This document shows positions 32,701-42,404 of a stretch of DNA of 64,000 bases, in pieces. Position 1 is the first letter of the stretch. The number at the start of each line of letters is the position of its first letter. A program made the translations under genes and the position numbers. Below the pieces are notes generated by a model. It ran no database searches and had not been told where the DNA came from. It was given only the letters and a program-made list of their open reading frames with translations. The stretch spans positions 496,001 through 560,000 of the forward strand of contig NZ_CP099959.1 in the NCBI RefSeq assembly GCF_040409815.1, written 5' to 3'. This DNA is from Polynucleobacter sp. UK-FUSCHL-C3 (lineage in GTDB: Bacteria > Pseudomonadota > Gammaproteobacteria > Burkholderiales > Burkholderiaceae).

Positions 32701-33246
32701 TTAGTTACCAGTCGTTACGCTAGCCACCCGTCTTGCTTCGGTATAGCGTGAAGCCCAATAGGGTGTATCAATTCGATCTAAGCGAACAGTGCCACCTGCA
32801 CTAGGAGCATGAACAAAGCGACCTTTACCCACATAGATTCCAGCGTGCGAGTAGCGCTCACCCGTAGTGTTAAAGAAGACCAAATCACCCGGTGCTGGGG
32901 CTTGCTGACCAATTCCACGCCCAGCATTACTCATTTGCTGGATGGTGCGTGGCAACTGAATTCCAGAGCTTTTATTGAAGACATAAGCAATTAAACCGCT
33001 GCAATCAAAGCCACCCGCGGGGGTATTACCACCATAGCGATAAGGCACGCCCACAAGCCCAATTGCTGCGATGGAGATGTCTTCACTGCCAACACTCGTA
33101 TCATTTTTGAAGTGTGCAATCCTTGGGCTCGATGAGGCCTCACTGGAAGTACGAGGGCTAAATGTGCTGCAAGCACTGAGCGTTGACACACTCAGTACAA
33201 GCAGGGCAATCCATCGAGCAGAATTTTTACAAAGCTTCAGCAGCAT
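32701..33246 (-). CDS. NlpC/P60 (C40) peptidoglycan endopeptidase lipoprotein
   Basis: This 181-aa cell-wall hydrolase is of the Spr/MepS type. A lipobox STLSAC predicts lipid attachment at Cys26. The catalytic domain (residues about 55-175) has the Cys in GGFDCSGLIAYVF, the His in YSHAGIYVG and the third polar residue in FVHAP. It probably cuts peptide cross-links during wall growth. Its start lies inside the end of phoH (20-base overlap), which suggests translational coupling. It converges tail to tail with dnaB with no gap. Confidence 0.92.
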   Translation of the reverse strand: MLLKLCKNSARWIALLVLSVSTLSACSTFSPRTSSEASSSPRIAHFKNDTSVGSEDISIAAIGLVGVPYRYGGNTPAGGFDCSGLIAYVFNKSSGIQLPRTIQQMSNAGRGIGQQAPAPGDLVFFNTTGERYSHAGIYVGKGRFVHAPSAGGTVRLDRIDTPYWASRYTEARRVASVTTGN

Positions 33247-34894
33247 GGTCAGCTAGTCGCGAACGTTCGCCACGAGCCAATGTAATGTGACCACTATGGC
33301 GCCAACCTTTAAAACGATCAACCACATAGGTGAGGCCCGACGAACCCTCTGTGAGATAGGGTGTGTCGATCTGAGCAATATTGCCCAAACACACAATCTT
33401 GGTGCCCGGCCCAGCTCGCGTTACCAAAGTCTTCATCTGTTTAGGAGTTAAGTTCTGCGCCTCATCAATAATCAGAAACTTACTCACAAAGGTGCGACCG
33501 CGCATGAAGTTCATGCTTTTAACTTTGATGCGTGAACGGATTAACTCCTGAGTAGCAGCACGACCCCATTCTCCTGCACTGTCATCATTGCGATGTAAGA
33601 CCTCAAGGTTGTCATCAAAAGCACCCATCCACGGCTGCATTTTTTCTTCTTCAGTACCTGGCAAGAATCCAATATCTTCCCCAACCGGAACGGTCGCACG
33701 GGTAATGATGATTTCGTTATAGCGTTTGCTGTCTAGAACCTGCTCTAGTCCTGCAGCCAGAGCTAATAGGGTTTTGCCAGTACCAGCCTGACCTAAGAGC
33801 GTCACAAAATCAATATCAGGGTTCATGAGCAAGTTCATGGCAAAGTTTTGCTCACGATTGCGGGCAGTAATGCTCCACACATTATTTTTCTGGTGCGAGA
33901 AATCTTTTAGGGTTTGTAATAAGGCAGTCTTACCGTTAATCTCCCGAACTAATGCATAAAAAGGAGTAGAGCCGTCAGGATTTTCTTGATAGACAAATTG
34001 ATTCACCAACATACTGGGAACAAGTGGCCCAGTCACTCGATAGAACATAGTGCCACTTTTGCCGTCTGCCCAACTTTCCATTGCCTTGCCATGTTTGGGC
34101 CAAAAATCAGCGGGCAGGGTCATGACCCCTGAATACATCAGGTCACGGTCTTCTAAGACTTGATCATTGAAATAATCTTCTGCAGGCAGCCCAAGAGCAC
34201 GCGCTTTGATGCGCATATTGATATCTTTGGAGACTAAGACTACTTCTTGATTGGGCTTCGCCTTTTGCAGGTCGCTTACCACTCCCAGAATTAGATTATC
34301 ACCTTTGCCCTCTGGTAATCCTTCAGGAAGGGGCGTACTTGAGAAATGAGTTTGGAAGAACAGGCGCCCAGTCGCATCCTGATTTCCTAATTTATTCAGC
34401 GGTATACCCTTATCGAGTTGACCGCTAGTACCAGCGATAAGTTGATCTAGGGAGCGACTGACCATACGAGCATTGCGCGCAACTTCACTCATCCCCTTTT
34501 TATGGTTATCCAATTCCTCTAAGGTGGTCATGGGTAAATACAAATCATGCTCCTCGAAGCGGAACAGAGAGGATGGGTCATGCATTAATACATTGGTATC
34601 TAGTACAAAAAGACTGGGGGGGCCGGTACGGATGGTACGCTTAGGCCGTTCATTCTTGGCTTCTAATTTCTTTTCTAAGTATTGTGCTGGTGCATCCGTT
34701 TTGATTCGCTCAAGCGCCTCTTCGGCAGCGGATAGATCGTGTTCCACTTCTTCCACAACATCTCCGTTTTCAACCCAGACTGAGCTAGTAGCTAATTTCT
34801 TGACCTTTTTGGGAGGGTTTTTGAGATCAGGTTGTTTCTGATGACTCAAATTCACTTGGTCAGCAATTTGGGTAGGTAGGGGAGGTAACGGCAT
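33227..34894 (-). CDS. PhoH-family ATPase with N-terminal PIN domain
   Basis: This 555-aa protein fuses a PIN nuclease-like domain (LFVLDTNVLMHDPSSLFRFEEHD, residues about 95-230) to a PhoH helicase/ATPase domain with Walker A GQAGTGKTLLALAAGLE and Walker B FLIIDEAQNLTPKQMK. It resembles PhoH2/YlaK proteins, proposed to unwind and cut RNA. The first 95 residues are charged and probably disordered. Translation begins at ATG 34894 behind a clear AGGAGAA site. Directly before that site is an intrinsic terminator, so expression probably depends on readthrough control in the leader. It is followed by and overlaps an NlpC/P60 gene. Confidence 0.92.
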   Translation of the reverse strand: MPLPPLPTQIADQVNLSHQKQPDLKNPPKKVKKLATSSVWVENGDVVEEVEHDLSAAEEALERIKTDAPAQYLEKKLEAKNERPKRTIRTGPPSLFVLDTNVLMHDPSSLFRFEEHDLYLPMTTLEELDNHKKGMSEVARNARMVSRSLDQLIAGTSGQLDKGIPLNKLGNQDATGRLFFQTHFSSTPLPEGLPEGKGDNLILGVVSDLQKAKPNQEVVLVSKDINMRIKARALGLPAEDYFNDQVLEDRDLMYSGVMTLPADFWPKHGKAMESWADGKSGTMFYRVTGPLVPSMLVNQFVYQENPDGSTPFYALVREINGKTALLQTLKDFSHQKNNVWSITARNREQNFAMNLLMNPDIDFVTLLGQAGTGKTLLALAAGLEQVLDSKRYNEIIITRATVPVGEDIGFLPGTEEEKMQPWMGAFDDNLEVLHRNDDSAGEWGRAATQELIRSRIKVKSMNFMRGRTFVSKFLIIDEAQNLTPKQMKTLVTRAGPGTKIVCLGNIAQIDTPYLTEGSSGLTYVVDRFKGWRHSGHITLARGERSRLADHAAEAL

Positions 34895-34905
34895 GCAAGC
34901 TTCTC

Positions 34906-35058
34906 CTAAATGAAAAAACCGCCTAGCTGATGCTGTGGGCGGTTTAGGGGGGTGCGAGGACTTCGGCGGTATGCACAGATTTTGAGGGGACTGGGACTTG
35001 GGCCCCGTCTAAGGAGACCTAGAAGCTGATTAATCCAATCCCATCGCTTACGGTGCAT
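34906..35058 (-). CDS. Possible leader ORF upstream of phoH
   Basis: This open frame of 50 codons starts at ATG 35058 (MHRKRWDWINQLLGLLRRGP) and is rich in Arg and Pro (PSPSP, RRSPRTP). It runs through the terminator hairpin and stops with TAG at 34908-34906, where the stop overlaps the phoH ribosome site. A promoter predicted at 35094-35067 would begin the RNA about 2 bases before this ATG. Translation through the hairpin could prevent termination and couple to phoH. It may equally be a chance frame over a structured RNA; the protein has no recognised family. Confidence 0.35.
   Translation of the reverse strand: MHRKRWDWINQLLGLLRRGPSPSPLKICAYRRSPRTPLNRPQHQLGGFFI
34911..34945 (-). terminator. 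Intrinsic terminator just before the phoH ribosome site
   Basis: On the minus strand AAACCGCC (34945-34938) pairs with GGCGGTTT (34923-34916), with a 14-base loop, followed by TTTTTT. The hairpin ends about 4 bases before the AGGAGAA site of phoH. Such a position is typical of attenuators and riboswitch expression platforms. It could also end bcp transcripts or an independent small RNA. Confidence 0.8.
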
Positions 35059-35059
35059 A
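34970..35059 (-). ncRNA. Rod-like structured RNA in the phoH leader
   Basis: TATGCAC (35059-35053) pairs with GTGCATA (34976-34970) and, nested inside, GGGATTGG (35042-35035) pairs with CCAGTCCC (34994-34987) with one G-U. GTCT/AGAC forms an apical hairpin. A second ACCGCC (34970-34965) repeats the 5' half of the terminator stem and could compete for GGCGGT. It does not match the conserved cores of SRP RNA, tmRNA or RNase P that I know, and it lacks a clear 6S match. It may be a cis-regulatory leader or a small RNA. Confidence 0.45.
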
Positions 35060-35066
35060 TATCCAT

Positions 35067-35094
35067 ACTGTACCCCAATTTTGTGTCTTTGCAA
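35067..35094 (-). promoter_or_regulatory. Candidate promoter of the phoH leader
   Basis: On the minus strand TTGCAA (35094-35089) and TACAGT (35072-35067) are 16 bases apart. The predicted start is at about 35060. It lies between bcp and phoH, so phoH can be transcribed independently of bcp. Confidence 0.6.
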
Positions 35095-35109: not shown

Positions 35110-35577
35110 CTAGTCCAGTTTCTTGGCGGCAGCTAAAACCTCAGCCACATGACCTGTTACCTTGATACCCCGCCACTCTTTTTGCAGAACTCCTTTGCTA
35201 TCAAATAAGAAGGTGCTGCGATCAAGCCCCCGGACCTGTTTGCCATACATATTTTTCATTTTCATGACACCAAAGATAGCGCAAAGCTTTTCTTCAGTAT
35301 CGGCAACCAGCTCAAAGGGTAGATCAAGTTTTTGGCGAAAGTTCTCATGCGAGCGCAGGTGATCTCTCGATACACCAACGACCAAAGCATTCGCTTGATT
35401 AAAGGATTCAATGTGATCTCTAAATTCGCCAGCCTCGACAGTACATCCAGGCGTTGAGTCTTTGGGATAAAAGTACAAGACCAATTTCTTGCCTTGATAG
35501 GCTTTGGGAGAGAAGGTGAGTTGTGATGTTGCTGGGATCTCACAGTACGGTATGGTTTGCCCAATTTTGATAGTCAT
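35110..35577 (-). CDS. bcp: Thioredoxin-dependent peroxiredoxin, BCP type
   Basis: This 155-aa thiol peroxidase reduces peroxides. The peroxidatic Cys45 is in DSTPGCTVEAGEFRD. The nearby second cysteine of E. coli BCP (5 residues later) is replaced, so resolution must use another cysteine or an external thiol. The start at MTIKIGQ (35577) follows an AAGGA ribosome site; five extra upstream codons are less likely. It lies 24 bases after arnD on the same strand. Confidence 0.92.
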   Translation of the reverse strand: MTIKIGQTIPYCEIPATSQLTFSPKAYQGKKLVLYFYPKDSTPGCTVEAGEFRDHIESFNQANALVVGVSRDHLRSHENFRQKLDLPFELVADTEEKLCAIFGVMKMKNMYGKQVRGLDRSTFLFDSKGVLQKEWRGIKVTGHVAEVLAAAKKLD

Positions 35578-35601
35578 ATTACATTCCTTCATTAGTATTC
35601 A

Positions 35602-36534
35602 TTAAAAATCTGTGCTTGTACTAGCCTGCACCATCAACTCGCCACTTCGATTAGCAATACTTCCGTACTTAAATTGCTCAGTCGCTATTTTATCGAGCTG
35701 TCCAGTAGCTGCCCAAGAGCGATGTAATACCCCCATTGTCACAAGTTCATGTCCTTGCTCCAGCCATCCTAGGAGTAGTTTGCGAAAGGCCGGTAGCAGC
35801 TTTTGACCTTCGAGCTCTGCATGCAGAGTAAAGACCTGATCATTGGGATTGCTCTGTGTCATTGCCAGAATTTGTTGTGCAGCTCCAAATGCATCCGTAC
35901 CATCTATACCGATTAGCTCATCAAAAGTAGGTAGAGTGGTGGGGTATTGGACATGTTTACTTTTTTGCTGACCAAACGCGATTCGATAAGGAACCAAATT
36001 TGGGGCAGAGCGACCATCGGAAGCATAGAGCATTCCCCAAGCGTCAATTTGCTCTAAAGCAGCAAGATTCATTTGCCAGCCTGCGGCACCATGGGTTACT
36101 GGAGGGTGACCAAAGATCTCGATAAAACGATCGTAGGCTTTTTGCATCTGCTGACGCGTCCACGAGGCATCACGCTGATGGACATTATCTTGCCAATACA
36201 CATGATCCCATGTATGAATCCCAGTCTCATGTCCCGCTTGATCCACCGCACGCATTTCATTGGCAGCTCGTTTGCCAATGTCAGGAGCAGGCAGTAAAAC
36301 ACCATACAAGAGGGTCTTTATGCCATAGTGCTCAACAACCGATGTGCGCGAAACTTTTTTTAAGAATCCAGGTCTAAATACACGCTTTAGTGCCCAACCC
36401 GTATGATCTGGGCCTAAGCTAAATAAAAAGGTTGCACCCACTCCGAGTTCAGCAAAGAGTTTGGCTAAGTTAGGGGTGCCAACTTGAGTACCCAACAGGG
36501 TATCAACATCGACTTTTAAGGCGATCTTGGCCAT
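35602..36534 (-). CDS. arnD: 4-deoxy-4-formamido-L-arabinose-phosphoundecaprenol deformylase ArnD
   Basis: This polysaccharide-deacetylase-fold enzyme of 310 aa removes the formyl group from undecaprenyl-phosphate Ara4FN at the inner membrane. The N-terminal ALKVDVDTLLGTQVGTPNL with its aspartates and the metal-binding ETGIHTWDHVYWQDN (H-x3-D-H type) are the ArnD signatures. It is the last arn gene of the cluster and precedes bcp. Confidence 0.93.
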   Translation of the reverse strand: MAKIALKVDVDTLLGTQVGTPNLAKLFAELGVGATFLFSLGPDHTGWALKRVFRPGFLKKVSRTSVVEHYGIKTLLYGVLLPAPDIGKRAANEMRAVDQAGHETGIHTWDHVYWQDNVHQRDASWTRQQMQKAYDRFIEIFGHPPVTHGAAGWQMNLAALEQIDAWGMLYASDGRSAPNLVPYRIAFGQQKSKHVQYPTTLPTFDELIGIDGTDAFGAAQQILAMTQSNPNDQVFTLHAELEGQKLLPAFRKLLLGWLEQGHELVTMGVLHRSWAATGQLDKIATEQFKYGSIANRSGELMVQASTSTDF

Positions 36535-36546
36535 CAGGAATAGGAT

Positions 36547-37587
36547 CTAGTCGACGAGATGACGGGCTTTATCAACATCATTGCGATAGGCTTCAAAGAT
36601 TTTGGCAAGAGCGTCTTCCATCGCAGTACTTGGCTTCCAGCCCAGCTCTTGCATCGTATTGCTAATAGCGGGCACACGATTTTGTACATCTTGATACCCA
36701 ATACCGTAATAGGCTTTGGATGTTGTCTCAATCAGCTTTACTTTGTCAGCTGTAACGACGTATTCCGGTATCTTTTTCGCAATCGTTAGCATCATATTGG
36801 CCAATTCTTTGACCGAGTGATTATTCTTTGGGTTACCAATGTTATAGATCTTGCCGTTGGCAATATCATTTTCATTGGCAATGATATGCATTAAAGCGTC
36901 AATGCCATCATCAATATACGTAAAGGCCCGCTTTTGTGAGCCACCATCCACGAGATTGATCGGTTCACCGCGCACAATATGACCTAAGAACTGAGTAACT
37001 ACGCGCGAGGATCCTTCTTTGGGAGTGTAGATACTATCAAGACCTGGCCCGATCCAATTAAAGGGTCTAAATAGTGTGAACCGTAACCCTTCCATACCGT
37101 AACCCCAAATCACACGATCCATTAATTGTTTTGCACACGCATAGATCCAACGTGGTTTATTAATGGGGCCATAGACCAAATTAGATTGTGCTGGATCAAA
37201 CTCGGCATCTTCGCACATGCCATAGACCTCAGAGGTGGATGGGAAGACTAAATGTTTGCCGTACTTGACCGCGGAACGGACGATGGGGAGATTTGCCTCA
37301 AAGTCGAGCTCAAAAACTCGCAGGGGCTGTTGTACATAGGTAGCTGGGGTCGCAATTGCCACTAGGGGCAGAATGACATCGCATTTACGAACATGGTACT
37401 CAACCCATTCGCGATTGATAGTGATGTCGCCTTCAAAGAAATGCATTCTGGGATTGCTGAGCAAATCACCGATTCGGTCGTTTTGCATGTCCATGCCATA
37501 GACCTCCCATGAGGTGGTCTCTAGAATGCGCTTGGATAGATGATGACCAATAAAACCATTCACACCCAAAATGAGGACTTTTTTCAT
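36547..37587 (-). CDS. arnA: UDP-glucuronate oxidative decarboxylase (ArnA C-terminal-type)
   Basis: This extended short-chain dehydrogenase oxidises and decarboxylates UDP-glucuronic acid to UDP-4-keto-arabinose. The protein is 346 aa from MKKVLILGVNGFIGHHLSKRI (NAD-binding GxxGxxG). It has the catalytic FPSTSEVYG and YACAKQLMDR (Tyr/Lys) and ends in a typical ArnA C-terminal helix. In enterobacteria this domain is fused to the formyltransferase; here it is a separate gene. A 39-base gap follows the formyltransferase gene. The same fold makes UDP-xylose, but the arn context decides. Confidence 0.9.
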   Translation of the reverse strand: MKKVLILGVNGFIGHHLSKRILETTSWEVYGMDMQNDRIGDLLSNPRMHFFEGDITINREWVEYHVRKCDVILPLVAIATPATYVQQPLRVFELDFEANLPIVRSAVKYGKHLVFPSTSEVYGMCEDAEFDPAQSNLVYGPINKPRWIYACAKQLMDRVIWGYGMEGLRFTLFRPFNWIGPGLDSIYTPKEGSSRVVTQFLGHIVRGEPINLVDGGSQKRAFTYIDDGIDALMHIIANENDIANGKIYNIGNPKNNHSVKELANMMLTIAKKIPEYVVTADKVKLIETTSKAYYGIGYQDVQNRVPAISNTMQELGWKPSTAMEDALAKIFEAYRNDVDKARHLVD

Positions 37588-37626
37588 AAAACTAATTCCT
37601 TTTGATTGAACTACACCACTAGGCAT

Positions 37627-38529
37627 TCATTGAACTTCTACGGATAGAAGTTCAAGTACTTTGCCATCACCACAGAGGCCGAAGTATCGATTATCGACTA
37701 GATGAAGTCCTGGCGTCGATTTTTTGAGGATCTGAGCAACTTGGGGGCTGAGATCAGTTTCAATAATAAGGGGTAGTGAGCTTTTGGAAAGAATCCATAC
37801 CCTTCCTTGAAACTCGGTAAATGCGCCTGGATAGGGCGGGGCAACGGCCCGAATTAAGTTGTAAATTGTGATGGCAGGCTGAGACCAATCAATACGGCCA
37901 TCCTCAGGTTTGCGGCCCCCGTAATAATTGCCTCGGCTGAGATCATTTGGGCTTCTTGGAATCTCACCCTTCATAAGCTTTGGTAACACTCTTTCTATTA
38001 CTCGCTTAGCTGCATTACTTACCTTATTAAATACATCATGGGCAGTTTCATGGATCTCAATAGAGACTGCAATTTGGTCAACGATATCACCGGCATCAGG
38101 TTTAGCTTCCATCACGTGCAAAGTAGCCCCGGTTTCCACTTCTCCATGCAAAACTGCCCAATTAACGGGGGCGCGCCCACGATACTTTGGTAATAGAGAG
38201 CCGTGCATATTCAGCGCTGCAAGCTTGGGCACTTTCAATAACTCTACCGGAATCATGAAGCGGTAATAGAAGGAAAAAATATAGTCTGGTGATAGCGCTA
38301 TAAGTCGAGGTAAAAGTTTTAGTAATTGATCGCGTTCTACTATTTCATAGGGAATATGATTCTCTTGGCATAGCTTGGCAACACTGCCAAACCAAATATT
38401 TTCATTGGGGTCATCCTCGTGCGTAATGACTAGATCGATATGCATTCCTGCATCGAGCAGAGCCTGCAAACAATATACGCCCACATCATGGTAGGCAAAA
38501 ACAACTGCATGTTGATTGACTTGATTCAA
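37627..38529 (-). CDS. arnA: UDP-4-amino-4-deoxy-L-arabinose formyltransferase (ArnA N-terminal-type)
   Basis: This 300-aa enzyme transfers formyl from 10-formyl-tetrahydrofolate to UDP-Ara4N. The formyltransferase fold shows LNMHGSLLPKYRGRAPVNWAVLHGE (Asn/His/Asp catalytic set), ITHEDDPNENIWFGSVAKLCQ and a C-terminal OB-like domain from about residue 205. It is the stand-alone equivalent of the N-terminal half of ArnA. It lies 4 bases after arnC. Confidence 0.92.
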   Translation of the reverse strand: MNQVNQHAVVFAYHDVGVYCLQALLDAGMHIDLVITHEDDPNENIWFGSVAKLCQENHIPYEIVERDQLLKLLPRLIALSPDYIFSFYYRFMIPVELLKVPKLAALNMHGSLLPKYRGRAPVNWAVLHGEVETGATLHVMEAKPDAGDIVDQIAVSIEIHETAHDVFNKVSNAAKRVIERVLPKLMKGEIPRSPNDLSRGNYYGGRKPEDGRIDWSQPAITIYNLIRAVAPPYPGAFTEFQGRVWILSKSSLPLIIETDLSPQVAQILKKSTPGLHLVDNRYFGLCGDGKVLELLSVEVQ

Positions 38530-38533
38530 GAAT

Positions 38534-39514
38534 CTAGGATTTTGCTTGCTCTAGAACGGCGCTGACCATGTAGCGTGGGCGTTGCCGAACTTGTTGATAG
38601 ATGCGACCAATGTACTCACCAAGCAGTCCAAGCCCAAAGAGCATGACCCCAATAAGGAAGAAAGTAAGCGCAAACAGGGTAAAGACACCCTCGACCTCAG
38701 CGCCTAATACAAAGCGCCGAATCAAGAGTAATAAAAATAGAGAGCCTGCCGCTCCAGCCAACAACATCCCAAGGATAGAAAAAATCTGGAGTGGCATCAC
38801 CGAGAAACCAGTGACCAAATCAAAATTAAGCCGGATGAGTTGATACAAGCTATATTTAGATTCCCCTGCAAAACGTTCTTCGTGTTTGACAGAGATCTCA
38901 ATCGGCTTATTTGCAAAGGTGTAGGCGAGCGCAGGAATAAATGTATTAGCTTCCTCGCACTGTGATACCAAATGAACAATGCGACGATGGTAACCCCGCA
39001 TCATGCAACCCTGATCGGTCATGGTGATCCGAGTCATTTTGTCACGCAGATGATTCATGGCACGCGAGGCACTCTTTCGAAACCAAGAGTCTTGGCGATT
39101 CTCGCGAATGGTGCCAACATAATCATGCCCCTCCTCTAGTTGACGAACAATTTTTCTAATTTCTTCCGGAGGATTTTGCAAATCAGCATCTAGCGTAATG
39201 ACGTATTCACCACGAGCGTATTCAAAGCCAGCCATGATCGCCATATGCTGACCAAAATTATTAGCAAACAGAACTACACGAGTTACATCAGGACGCTTTT
39301 CATACTGCATCGCCAAAATAGCCGCAGAGCGATCTTTGCTTCCATCGTTCACAAAAACAATTTCATACGATAGGGCAAATTGAGAAGTGATTTGATCAAG
39401 CGCGGGATAGAGTCGATCAAACAAAGCATTTAGACCATCTTCCTCGTTGTAGACCGGAATGACCACGCTAAGGCGAGGCGCATCACTGCTAAATTGGATT
39501 GGAGAGTTGTTCAT
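38534..39514 (-). CDS. arnC: Undecaprenyl-phosphate Ara4FN transferase ArnC
   Basis: This family-2 glycosyltransferase of 326 aa moves Ara4FN from UDP to undecaprenyl phosphate. The N-terminal VVIPVYNEEDGLNALFDRLY, the DXD-like TLDADLQNPPEEI and two C-terminal transmembrane helices (about residues 235-260 and 270-300) match ArnC. A related dolichol-phosphate-mannose synthase role is possible by fold alone; the operon favours ArnC. Confidence 0.92.
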   Translation of the reverse strand: MNNSPIQFSSDAPRLSVVIPVYNEEDGLNALFDRLYPALDQITSQFALSYEIVFVNDGSKDRSAAILAMQYEKRPDVTRVVLFANNFGQHMAIMAGFEYARGEYVITLDADLQNPPEEIRKIVRQLEEGHDYVGTIRENRQDSWFRKSASRAMNHLRDKMTRITMTDQGCMMRGYHRRIVHLVSQCEEANTFIPALAYTFANKPIEISVKHEERFAGESKYSLYQLIRLNFDLVTGFSVMPLQIFSILGMLLAGAAGSLFLLLLIRRFVLGAEVEGVFTLFALTFFLIGVMLFGLGLLGEYIGRIYQQVRQRPRYMVSAVLEQAKS

Positions 39515-39547
39515 GTCTACATTTTGCCTGAACAGCGACTTGCGTTA

Positions 39548-40705
39548 TTAGTTCAGGACTTGAGTGAGGGCCTCGACCACGCTATCAATATCGTGTGAGC
39601 TCATGGTGGGGAATAAAGGGATGGTCAGGATAGAGCGACCAATCTCCGCAGCAATGGGGGTGGATTCGGGGCGATAGCCTAATTTACGATAGAGCTCAAA
39701 CCCAGTAATGATGGGGTAATGCACCCCAGTACCAATGCCACGCTCTTTCAGGGTCGTCATCATGTCACCACGAGAGCGTTGCAAGCGAGTCAATGGCAAA
39801 GTAACCTGAAACATATGCCAGTTACTCTGTTCATAGTCAGCTACGGGCAGACCTAAGCCTTTGTTAGCTAAACCGGCTTGAGTAATTTTCTGGAAATATT
39901 CTTTAGCTAACTCGATACGCCTCTTCTGAAATTGATCTAACTGTTTGATCTGATGCAAGCCAATCACGGCATTGATATCGGTTAAATTATCTTTACCGCC
40001 CAAGATGTCCACTTCCATCCCGTCGGGACCGCTGCGAACTAAACCTTGTAATCGTAATTTCTCTGCTAGACGTACTTGGTCTTCGCCAAAACGTTCAGTA
40101 TTAAAAACTAAACAACCACCTTCAATGGTGGTGAGGTTTTTATTTGCCTGAAAACTAAAACTGACTAAATCATGTTTACCTGCATGACCAATTCGGGTTC
40201 CATTCCAGGAAGATCCTAAGGCTTGCGCCGCATCTTCAATCACGCGCAAACCGTGTTGATTTGCCAATGCATATAAAGCATCTACATCAAGCGGTAAGCC
40301 TGCTAGGTAGACTGGCATGATAGCTTTTGTATTTTTACTAATAGCCTTAGCTACTTGATTGAGATCTAGATTACGTGTTTGAGGATCAACATCAACAAAT
40401 ATTGGCTTTGCGCCAACGGCCAGAATGACATTGGACGTGGCTACCCAAGAAATCGGGGTTGTAATTACCTCATCGCCCGGACCAATTCCGGCAACCTGAA
40501 GTGCAATCTTCATTGTGGCTGTACCGTTTGCAAAACAGCGCACAGTTGCGCCGCCCAGATAATCTCCGAGAGCATTCTCAAACTCTAGAACCTTAGGGCC
40601 TGAGGTAATCCAACCTGAGCGTAGAACATCAGCAACGGCAGCAATCGTCGCCTCATCAATCGTGGGTTTGGTAAACGGAATAAATGGCAGGGTGTCTTGA
40701 CTCAT
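39548..40705 (-). CDS. arnB: UDP-4-amino-4-deoxy-L-arabinose aminotransferase ArnB
   Basis: This PLP-dependent DegT/DnrJ/EryC1-family enzyme of 385 aa converts UDP-4-keto-arabinose to UDP-Ara4N. The region VIEDAAQALGSSWNG holds the PLP-binding aspartate, and the Schiff-base lysine is in SFQANKNLTTIEGG. The start gives MSQDTLPFIPFTKPTIDEATI, the family N-terminus. arnT precedes it by 4 bases. Confidence 0.93.
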   Translation of the reverse strand: MSQDTLPFIPFTKPTIDEATIAAVADVLRSGWITSGPKVLEFENALGDYLGGATVRCFANGTATMKIALQVAGIGPGDEVITTPISWVATSNVILAVGAKPIFVDVDPQTRNLDLNQVAKAISKNTKAIMPVYLAGLPLDVDALYALANQHGLRVIEDAAQALGSSWNGTRIGHAGKHDLVSFSFQANKNLTTIEGGCLVFNTERFGEDQVRLAEKLRLQGLVRSGPDGMEVDILGGKDNLTDINAVIGLHQIKQLDQFQKRRIELAKEYFQKITQAGLANKGLGLPVADYEQSNWHMFQVTLPLTRLQRSRGDMMTTLKERGIGTGVHYPIITGFELYRKLGYRPESTPIAAEIGRSILTIPLFPTMSSHDIDSVVEALTQVLN

Positions 40706-40709
40706 TCGT

Positions 40710-42404
40710 CTATTGTCGCAAAGCTGGCGAAGGGTGTCTAACGATTACTCGTCTGGAGTCTCTCCCCAGCTCCTCCATGGGAAGATTCATTTGCTTGAGC
40801 TCCTCATATTGAGAGGGAATCATGACTGCGATTGCTTTGGGGTCTTGGTTCCAGAGGGCGATGAACTCTTGTAAAGAAGGAACCAATTTATGAGGCTCTT
40901 GTTTGGAACCAAAGGTCAGCTCATCGGTAAATTCCACCATGATGGTATTACGCTCTAAGTAAAACGGTAGGGTATGGTCAAGCAGACGCACGGAGTATAT
41001 CTTGGCATCACTAGGTATTTGACCTTTCACCTTTTGGGCAAGGTCATAGCCAGATACCGCACGACCTAGAGTTTCGTGACCGGTGCCGGCGATCGTTGCT
41101 GTTAGGAAAAATCCAAACGCAAACAATCCAATACTGAGCAGGGAATTTCTTTTAGCAAGCAGCGCTGCACAGAGGCTAAAACTGAACAAGCATAGAAGTG
41201 CTACCGTAATCCAAACGGTATAGGCTTGATATGCCTCGACCTCATCGGGTTGACCGTTTCGTCCAACCTCAGACAGAAAGAAAAAGCCGACGATTGCCAG
41301 AACTGCAAAAAAGACTGTTTGTACTCTCCAGCCATTCGATAGACTGGGGTGGGTTTCTAAATAGTCAATGATGGATTTGCTTGCCAAGATAGCGAGCGCT
41401 GGAAATACCGGCATGATGTACCCCGGTAATTTAGAGCGTGACACGCTAAAGAAAAGCAGGATGATGACAAACCATGCCCAGAGCATCCAGCTTGCCGAGA
41501 ATTGACCAAGGCAATACTGCTTGATAGTTTGCCAAGCCGATTGGAAGAACTGAGGCATCCATGGCAGAAAACCAATTATCACTAGGGGCAAGAAGAAGTA
41601 AAAGGGCGCAGTACGCCGATGCGCATCAGCTGTGAAGCGTTCAAAGTGCTCATGAATGAAAAAGAAATGCGCAAACTCTGGATTTTGTATCGATACTGCA
41701 ATAAACCAAGGTGCAGTCACTGCTAGGAAAATGATTAAGCCGCTAACAATGTGAAGCCTAGTCAAAATACGCCAATCCCAGCGAGTGATCATGTATGCAA
41801 ATAACACCATCCCCGGGATCACAACACCAATGAGGCCTTTTGAGAGGGTCGCTAGACCCATTGCTAACCAACAAATCCACATCCAATGTCGCGCTGCGCG
41901 CAGACGATTCTCATTAAAATTATGTTGAGCCAGAAGTAATGAACATAGCGCCAGATTCAAAAAGGCAGACAGTCCCATATCGAGAGCATTAAAGTGCCCA
42001 CCCACCACCCACATTGGACTTGCCAATAAGATGAGTGCTGCAAGATAGCCTGCGAGTGATCCATACAGACGAAATGCAGTAAAGCCCACCAACAGAATAG
42101 TGAAGTAGCTAGTGATGCCACTCCAGAATCGAGCCTGCCACTCTCCTAAACCAAATAATTGAAAGGTGATTGCAGTAACCCAGATGTGAAAGGGCGGCTT
42201 CTCAAAATACTTATAGTCGTTATAGCGAGGCGTAATGTAATCACCGCTCACCATCATTTCACGAGCCATCTGTGCATAGCGACCCTCATCGCTTGGGATG
42301 AGGTGGCGGTAATCAAGTGTGCCAAACCAAAGCAGAGTCGCTAAAGTAAATAATAGCAACAGTGCTGGGGAGCTTAAGGGCGTAATTTGGCGATTGGCGT
42401 TCAT
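40710..42404 (-). CDS. arnT: Lipid A Ara4N transferase ArnT-like glycosyltransferase
   Basis: This GT-C membrane enzyme of 564 aa adds 4-amino-arabinose from undecaprenyl phosphate to lipid A phosphates, which lowers negative charge and protects from cationic peptides. The N-terminal HLIPSDEGRYAQMAREMMVSGDYITPRYNDYKYFEKPPFHIW region has the catalytic acidic residues of the ArnT/PMT family. About 11 to 12 hydrophobic helices follow, then a periplasmic C-terminal domain. It heads the six-gene arn run after the Mth938-like gene (11-base gap). Confidence 0.9.
   Translation of the reverse strand: MNANRQITPLSSPALLLLFTLATLLWFGTLDYRHLIPSDEGRYAQMAREMMVSGDYITPRYNDYKYFEKPPFHIWVTAITFQLFGLGEWQARFWSGITSYFTILLVGFTAFRLYGSLAGYLAALILLASPMWVVGGHFNALDMGLSAFLNLALCSLLLAQHNFNENRLRAARHWMWICWLAMGLATLSKGLIGVVIPGMVLFAYMITRWDWRILTRLHIVSGLIIFLAVTAPWFIAVSIQNPEFAHFFFIHEHFERFTADAHRRTAPFYFFLPLVIIGFLPWMPQFFQSAWQTIKQYCLGQFSASWMLWAWFVIILLFFSVSRSKLPGYIMPVFPALAILASKSIIDYLETHPSLSNGWRVQTVFFAVLAIVGFFFLSEVGRNGQPDEVEAYQAYTVWITVALLCLFSFSLCAALLAKRNSLLSIGLFAFGFFLTATIAGTGHETLGRAVSGYDLAQKVKGQIPSDAKIYSVRLLDHTLPFYLERNTIMVEFTDELTFGSKQEPHKLVPSLQEFIALWNQDPKAIAVMIPSQYEELKQMNLPMEELGRDSRRVIVRHPSPALRQ

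Follow-up and report, generated by a model that had tools for sequence, protein, structure and literature searches.

A candidate translation-coupled transcription attenuator within the leader of phoH in Polynucleobacter and related bacteria

The window, by which we mean the whole 64-kb stretch of DNA analysed, comes from a freshwater bacterium and carries on its minus strand, in this order, bcp, a 215-nt intergenic stretch holding a leader, phoH and an NlpC/P60 gene (Table 1). The nearest named relatives among the matches returned are Polynucleobacter. PhoH proteins are very widespread and their regulation is poorly known; the product encoded here, which we take to be an RNA helicase-ribonuclease involved in RNA processing, matches the NCBIfam PhoH2 model below that model's cut-off. 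Further upstream on the same strand, beyond bcp, genes at 35602-42404 resemble an L-Ara4N-type lipid modification cluster (deformylase, UDP-4-keto-pentose synthase, formyltransferase, glycosyltransferase, aminotransferase and ArnT-like), four of the six best matches falling below NCBIfam cut-offs.

Table 1. Features of the phoH leader and the adjoining genes in the window.
Feature	Position	Strand	Remarks
phoH	33227..34894	-	PIN_4 and PhoH domains, PhoH2 type; ATG at 34894
Leader stop TAG fused to phoH Shine-Dalgarno site (TAGGAGAA)	34901..34908	-	TAG shares two bases with AGGAG
50-codon leader ORF, MHRKRWDWINQLLGLLRRGPSPSPLKICAYRRSPRTPLNRPQHQLGGFFI	34906..35058	-	ATG 35058; TAG 34908-34906 overlapping phoH Shine-Dalgarno site
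Putative intrinsic terminator (attenuator) inside leader ORF, AAACCGCC..GGCGGTTTTTT	34913..34946	-	hairpin 34946-34915, -14.8 kcal/mol
Clade-specific rod, ATATGCAC (35060-35053) able to pair with GTGCATA (34976-34970)	34969..35060	-	would cover leader AUG
Middle hairpin GGTCT..AGAC	35006..35019	-	counterpart covaries in other Polynucleobacter
Predicted transcription start	35057..35061	-	0-3 nt before leader ATG, from the 8-nt gap between -10 box and ATG
Sigma-70-type leader promoter TTGCAA-N16-TACAGT	35067..35094	-	-35 at 35094-35089, -10 at 35072-35067; conserved in genus
bcp-type peroxiredoxin (AhpC/TSA)	35110..35592	-	conserved neighbour upstream of leader and phoH

A preliminary description of this DNA had proposed an attenuator-like leader in which a promoter, a 50-codon frame and a hairpin followed by six T lie ahead of the phoH ribosome site. 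We find this attenuator reading mostly right, with a mechanism that needs changing. The promoter and the hairpin with its six T (34918-34913) are both present and conserved in the genus, and the TAG of the frame does overlap the AGGAG site of phoH. A generic consensus scan listed neither the promoter, which has 8 of 12 consensus bases only, nor the terminator, which was probably missed for having a loop larger than the scan allows. The 50-codon frame is likewise real, but its start is not the one listed: the program's frame (34906-35094) begins at a TTG within the -35 box, whereas the conserved start is the ATG at 35058, which lies 8 nt past the -10 box. Moreover, although leader ORF and terminator both lie ahead of the ribosome site, the ORF spans the terminator instead of preceding it. 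The window contains 88 ATG starts of ORFs of at least 100 codons (a count that includes alternative ATGs), 9 of them with a terminator in the last 80 nt; among these 88 starts, a leaderless-type ATG frame occurs only at phoH, where it runs through the terminator.

The spacing of -10 box and ATG predicts an RNA 5' end that coincides with the leader AUG or lies about 3 nt from it at most. Since transcription is predicted to start just before the ATG, there would be no room for a Shine-Dalgarno site serving it. As a check on circularity, we picked starts by frame alone, taking the most upstream ATG of any frame that extends across the terminator to a stop by phoH. Starts picked in this way had a TANNNT or CATAAT box 6-9 nt upstream in 57/57 Polynucleobacter leaders and in 17 of 22 leaders outside the genus, at exactly 8 nt in 15 of the latter. 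In Polynucleobacter the T-tract and the phoH ATG are only about 15-21 nt apart, leaving no room for a promoter past the terminator. Leaderless mRNAs are reported to be numerous in Cupriavidus metallidurans, at 4.67% of primary starts in the available part of PMC7563307.

The promoter spacer of many Polynucleobacter leaders (L015, L027, L032) contains an inverted repeat, CCCCAAAATTTGGGG, which is weak in the window copy, and Cupriavidus-type leaders (L099, L108) have CCGAA..TTCGG or similar at the same place. This repeat is a possible operator.

A DNA search with the leader matched 144 of 186 genus genomes (E<=0.001), mostly in two blocks, one comprising the promoter and leader start and the other the terminator and phoH Shine-Dalgarno site. 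We read the leaders of 64 loci in 61 genomes, 56 of them from the 144 matched genomes and five added via phoH protein matches (G034, G052, G065, G101, G111). Counted from the ATG that follows the -10 box by 6-9 nt, the frame continues past the terminator and stops 8-13 nt before phoH at 60 of the 64 loci, against 0/64 in each of frames +1 and +2. Control frames counted from the ATG are biased, since ATGA closes frame +1 at once, and we therefore counted from codon 4, with starts picked by promoter only. Here 142 loci were given and 129 scored; the 13 dropped were eight duplicates (L116 among them), three leaders without a terminator (L082, L157 and L276) and two without a leaderless ATG (L164 and L167). 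The Polynucleobacter set, with duplicates removed and seven named loci added, comprised 66 scored leaders. Of these, 62 stay open past the hairpin and reach their stop 0-30 nt ahead of phoH, whereas neither shifted frame does so in any leader; the sequences are related, and this and our other frame counts are not counts of independent events. With L082, which has no hairpin, as a 67th distinct leader, 62/67 keep frame and stop. Wherever the stop falls, 64/66 are open past the hairpin versus 2 and 2 in the shifted frames, and none of these shifted frames stops by phoH.

Individual leaders depart from this pattern. L093 has an early stop in the leader frame, the assigned phoH start of L207 lies 125 nt beyond the leader stop, and one extra T in the tract of L039 and L075 (seven T) causes the frame to be lost at the stop; slippage at the seven-T tract could restore it. 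In G050 (C1:1053362-1054440, leader L082), the only genome where we saw a phoH with internal stops, the leader frame and terminator hairpin are lost as well. These exceptions and a 21-codon subclade apart, leader ORFs of 47 to 53 codons all read the terminator in one frame, and their length changes are therefore multiples of three. In the deep 21-codon subclade (L078-L081, L083), the terminator is read in another frame, and the length after the T-tract differs so that the TAG again falls in the phoH Shine-Dalgarno site. Over 52 distinct ORFs, pN/pS is 0.60 for codons 2-20, with a third-position excess, and 0.94 from codon 21 to the terminator; the N-terminal start MHRKR(R/W) is conserved in Polynucleobacter leader ORFs. 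Taken together, the frame and stop counts and these two ratios indicate that selection preserves the open leader frame far more strictly than the peptide sequence.

The leader arrangement extends well beyond Polynucleobacter. A promoter-based family count, made from the ATG, took in 50 loci and scored all but four of them (the duplicate L116, L157 lacking a terminator, and L164 and L167 lacking a leaderless ATG); the frame ran through the terminator at 43/46 loci and in 20/22 genus labels, against 7 and 14 loci in the shifted frames. Counting from codon 4 in Burkholderiaceae other than Polynucleobacter, with named loci added, 41/44 are open past the hairpin versus 12 and 13 in shifted frames, the failures being L100, L154 and L165; the leader stop lies within 30 nt of phoH in 16/44. 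For 39 representatives at most 80% alike, drawn from Polynucleobacter and other Burkholderiaceae, 36 are open past the hairpin versus 6 and 10, and shuffled leaders gave a mean of 14.1 (sd 2.8, maximum 22, 500 rounds); 23 stop by phoH versus 0 and 1 in the shifted frames. Adding 14 representatives that we call Comamonadaceae-type, a label of our own that follows the taxonomy of the named genera and is applied also to family f48, gives 49/53 versus 18 and 22, with shuffles at 23.9 (sd 3.2, maximum 33). The short Comamonadaceae-type leaders make the frame-through test uninformative (open in 18, 17 and 17 of 19 in the three frames), and the one informative measure for them is the stop, within 30 nt of phoH in 13/19 versus 2 and 3.

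A survey of named loci returned 80. The frame runs through the terminator in 19/19 Polynucleobacter, Cupriavidus, Pararobbsia, Burkholderia, Paraburkholderia and Mycetohabitans loci, and in 11/13 other named loci with a leaderless-type ATG, including Pelomonas, Caldimonas, Piscinibacter, Roseateles, Sphaerotilus and Aquariibacter. Another 28 of the 80 have at least 60 nt but no leaderless ATG (Herbaspirillum, Massilia, Collimonas and Undibacterium among them), 16 have less room or no bcp found, and in 4 the phoH start was not found. Among the loci examined, Oxalobacteraceae such as Herbaspirillum, Collimonas and Massilia showed no leaderless ATG. Even within the family the leader is not universal: eleven further loci (L095, L142, L144, L145, L151, L152, L162 and L168-L171) have <95 nt after bcp or no adjacent bcp and were left unscored. 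Leader sequence and length vary among genera, with ORFs of 21 to 162 codons, and no peptide common to the leaders of different genera was seen by eye. In Burkholderia/Paraburkholderia-type leaders the frame passes the terminator and the stop mostly lies about 100-240 nt before phoH; coupling to the phoH Shine-Dalgarno site is therefore not general. Overall, these alignments and counts show conservation across genera of promoter position, start codon, frame through the terminator and predicted terminator, and of the leader stop position as well, though less generally beyond Polynucleobacter.

We next consider RNA folding. The 171-nt window leader folds at -51.2 kcal/mol (z -2.24; 4/200 shuffles as good). 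Structure alignments took 41 (A1) and 10 (A2) of 56 distinct leaders, leaving out a divergent subclade (L024, L025, L077), L026 with a mis-set start and L082 with its phoH broken by stops. In the alignment of 41 Polynucleobacter leaders, 99.6% of cells preserve the terminator pairing, and terminator pairs vary on one side only. The mid-leader hairpin does covary, as GCCTG..CAGGC or ACCTG..CAGGT in other Polynucleobacter: over the 41 leaders, 3 pairs and 17 cells are changed on both sides versus shuffled means of 0.9 and 5.7, and 0/500 shuffles reach 17 such cells. It is a possible pause hairpin. The preliminary description had listed a rod-like fold. That fold exists in the window, but among the aligned leaders it is found only there and in nine near relatives, where its AUG-covering helix is kept (97.5% of cells in the 10 sequences) and no pair has changed on both sides, which argues against the rod as a general sensor. 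A choice of pairings through duplicated ACCGCC, also proposed, is likewise unsupported: the second copy (34970-34965) makes a duplicate in 1/10 near-relative sequences, and the consensus folds contain no antiterminator common to the leaders. The leader matched no Rfam family, whether at gathering score or with the limit relaxed to E<=1, and the whole window yielded two tRNAs only. Relative to the leader AUG, the terminator hairpin of the window begins at +113. That of the 21-codon form begins at +23-26, and that of Comamonadaceae-type leaders at +15 to +54. As to NTP-sensitive pausing of the polymerase ahead of the terminator, a trait of pyrBI-type attenuators, we saw no U-run ahead of the hairpin in the window; some relatives carry CCGTTTTTT upstream of it.

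We consider it likely, from the conserved layout, that the leader is a translation-coupled transcription attenuator of phoH, in which a ribosome trailing the polymerase on a leaderless ORF blocks the terminator, a geometry resembling that of E. coli pyrBI. RNA polymerase would start on the leader AUG or no more than about 3 nt from it, and a ribosome would load on the RNA 5' end without a Shine-Dalgarno site. Close behind the polymerase, it would cover the hairpin arms as the terminator is made, letting the polymerase enter phoH; on reaching the stop codon on the phoH ribosome site, it may also aid phoH translation start. With a late or absent ribosome, the hairpin would form and transcription would end inside the ORF, leaving a short RNA without a stop codon. 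If a translating ribosome blocks the terminator, the item conserved should be the open frame through it and not the peptide, and the conserved geometry of early start, frame through the hairpin and stop after it would be what such coupling needs. We infer from this layout the transcription start, actual termination and readthrough, the Shine-Dalgarno coupling, and the direction of control, in which prompt translation of the leader turns phoH on. The signal may be how many ribosomes able to start on leaderless RNA are available, or how fast translation proceeds compared with transcription; a single amino acid is disfavoured since the leaders have no codon runs. The preliminary description had offered control of readthrough by either leader translation or a ligand: cross-species conservation speaks for the former, and a riboswitch finds no Rfam match and leaders that differ between genera.

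The available part of PMC4824070 describes repression of intrinsic terminators by a closely following ribosome, and non-stop RNA left by termination within an ORF; according to the abstract of PMC4833913, a stop a few nt before a gene may favour reinitiation. In E. coli, ribosomes largely fail to repress a terminator that lies less than ~100 bp into an ORF (PMC4824070, in the part available), and leaders with the hairpin less than ~100 bp from the AUG would accordingly need fast ribosome loading or polymerase pausing. A broader and tentative idea, which we hold to be doubtful, is that Burkholderiaceae and Comamonadaceae-type genera share a kinetic-race sensor of leaderless translation, with the terminator ~15-150 nt past the AUG. 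Readthrough into phoH would then measure the speed with which a ribosome initiates at a 5'-terminal AUG and trails the polymerase; phoH would be tuned to the supply of such ribosomes, and each failed attempt would leave a non-stop leader RNA to be dealt with by ribosome rescue.

Attenuator ORFs that are leaderless, and terminators suppressed by translation, are each known already. In E. coli pyrBI, the terminator lies within the pyrL ORF, whose stop is just ahead of pyrB. The Corynebacterium ilvBNC leader reportedly has an attenuator ORF without an RBS, and mycobacterial polycysteine ORFs are said to be leaderless attenuator ORFs; the trpL, ilvBNC and polycysteine leader ORFs each sense one amino acid. 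In contrast to these, the phoH leader has no codon run, and its frame extends through the terminator. Leaderless control of a downstream operon by an attenuator ORF, resembling that proposed here, is described for Sinorhizobium trpL/peTrpL in the available part of PMC7298713. At pyrBI, as would be the case at phoH, close translation of the leader ORF prevents an intrinsic terminator, and tight coupling over pyrL is needed for this (PMC5021804, available part). Unlike pyrBI, the phoH leader is predicted to be leaderless, the controlled gene is phoH, no U-run was seen before the window terminator, and in its short versions the AUG and the hairpin are no more than 26 nt apart. We found no description of a phoH attenuator in the open-licence papers searched. 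Short transcripts arising by processing or attenuation from 82 5'UTRs are reported for B. cenocepacia in the part of PMC5688073 available, and phoH may already figure among them. The Burkholderia RNA ncS35 was considered as the leader RNA and rejected; it sits between BCAM2068 and BCAM2069 (PMC5760752, available part).

Several other explanations would account for parts of these data. The compact promoter and terminator and the covarying middle hairpin would suit an independent sRNA of ~145 nt, perhaps peptide-encoding, with phoH transcribed by background readthrough or from bcp, and attenuators can give trans-acting RNAs such as rnTrpL (PMC7298713, available part). A non-coding RNA, however, does not need a frame open through its own terminator to the next gene's Shine-Dalgarno site, and between genera the leader sequence differs while the open frame stays, making this unlikely. 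That the leader encodes a functional small protein, for instance an antitoxin-like PhoH-binding partner, is suggested by the mild purifying selection on codons 2-20 in Polynucleobacter and by mycobacterial phoAT, likewise a short gene upstream of a PIN-PhoH gene, which is co-transcribed with phoH2 and whose product binds PhoH2 (PMC7390352, available part). PhoAT is a protein partner; the phoH leader peptide is not conserved between genera, and its frame holds the terminator. We regard a small protein as very unlikely: no cross-genus peptide was seen by eye over lengths of 21 to 162 codons, the later codons are nearly neutral with a C-terminus encoded by the terminator, and Pfam gave no match for the window peptide.

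The conserved MHRKR(R/W) start, considered with the covarying hairpin of Polynucleobacter, would fit an attenuator sensing an amino acid or the nascent peptide, in which the ribosome stalls at specific codons, such as the Arg codons CGT-AAR-CGA early in the frame, and termination is set by a pause hairpin or an alternative one. This is distinctly unlikely, as leader translations contain no run of regulated amino-acid codons of the trp/his/ilv type nor a run of any one amino acid, the motif is missing from the other genera read, and consensus folds lack an antiterminator pairing. An ordinary bcp terminator lying under a chance open frame is strongly disfavoured, and we give it very little credence indeed: the terminator is just past bcp and can also stop bcp transcripts, and some Oxalobacteraceae have a post-bcp terminator without a leaderless ATG, but chance does not explain the frame and stop-position statistics or a -10 box at nearly fixed distance from the frame-defined start. 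The coupled attenuator would account for a short ORF and a terminator not covered by RNA-family models. If correct, control of phoH becomes directly testable through a frame-conserved leader across Polynucleobacter, Cupriavidus, Burkholderia and relatives, and the leader would offer a compact natural reporter for leaderless initiation and for the coupling of transcription to translation.

Some further loci deserve mention. A TTG-start version of the leader may exist in Oxalobacteraceae, as frames reaching the phoH Shine-Dalgarno site can be traced in L119, L121, L124 and L127, though their start is doubtful: the TTG of L124 lies in the likely -10 region. In family f7 (L117, L124, L127), the terminator starts 20-27 nt past the bcp stop codon, and ribosomes finishing bcp translation might themselves control it. 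Finally, the PhoH proteins encoded on two genome-collection contigs, titled Alistipes senegalensis (L250) and Rhodospirillales (L219), share 71% and 77% identity with the query; each contig has a bcp relative close by, and both are probably misassigned bins.
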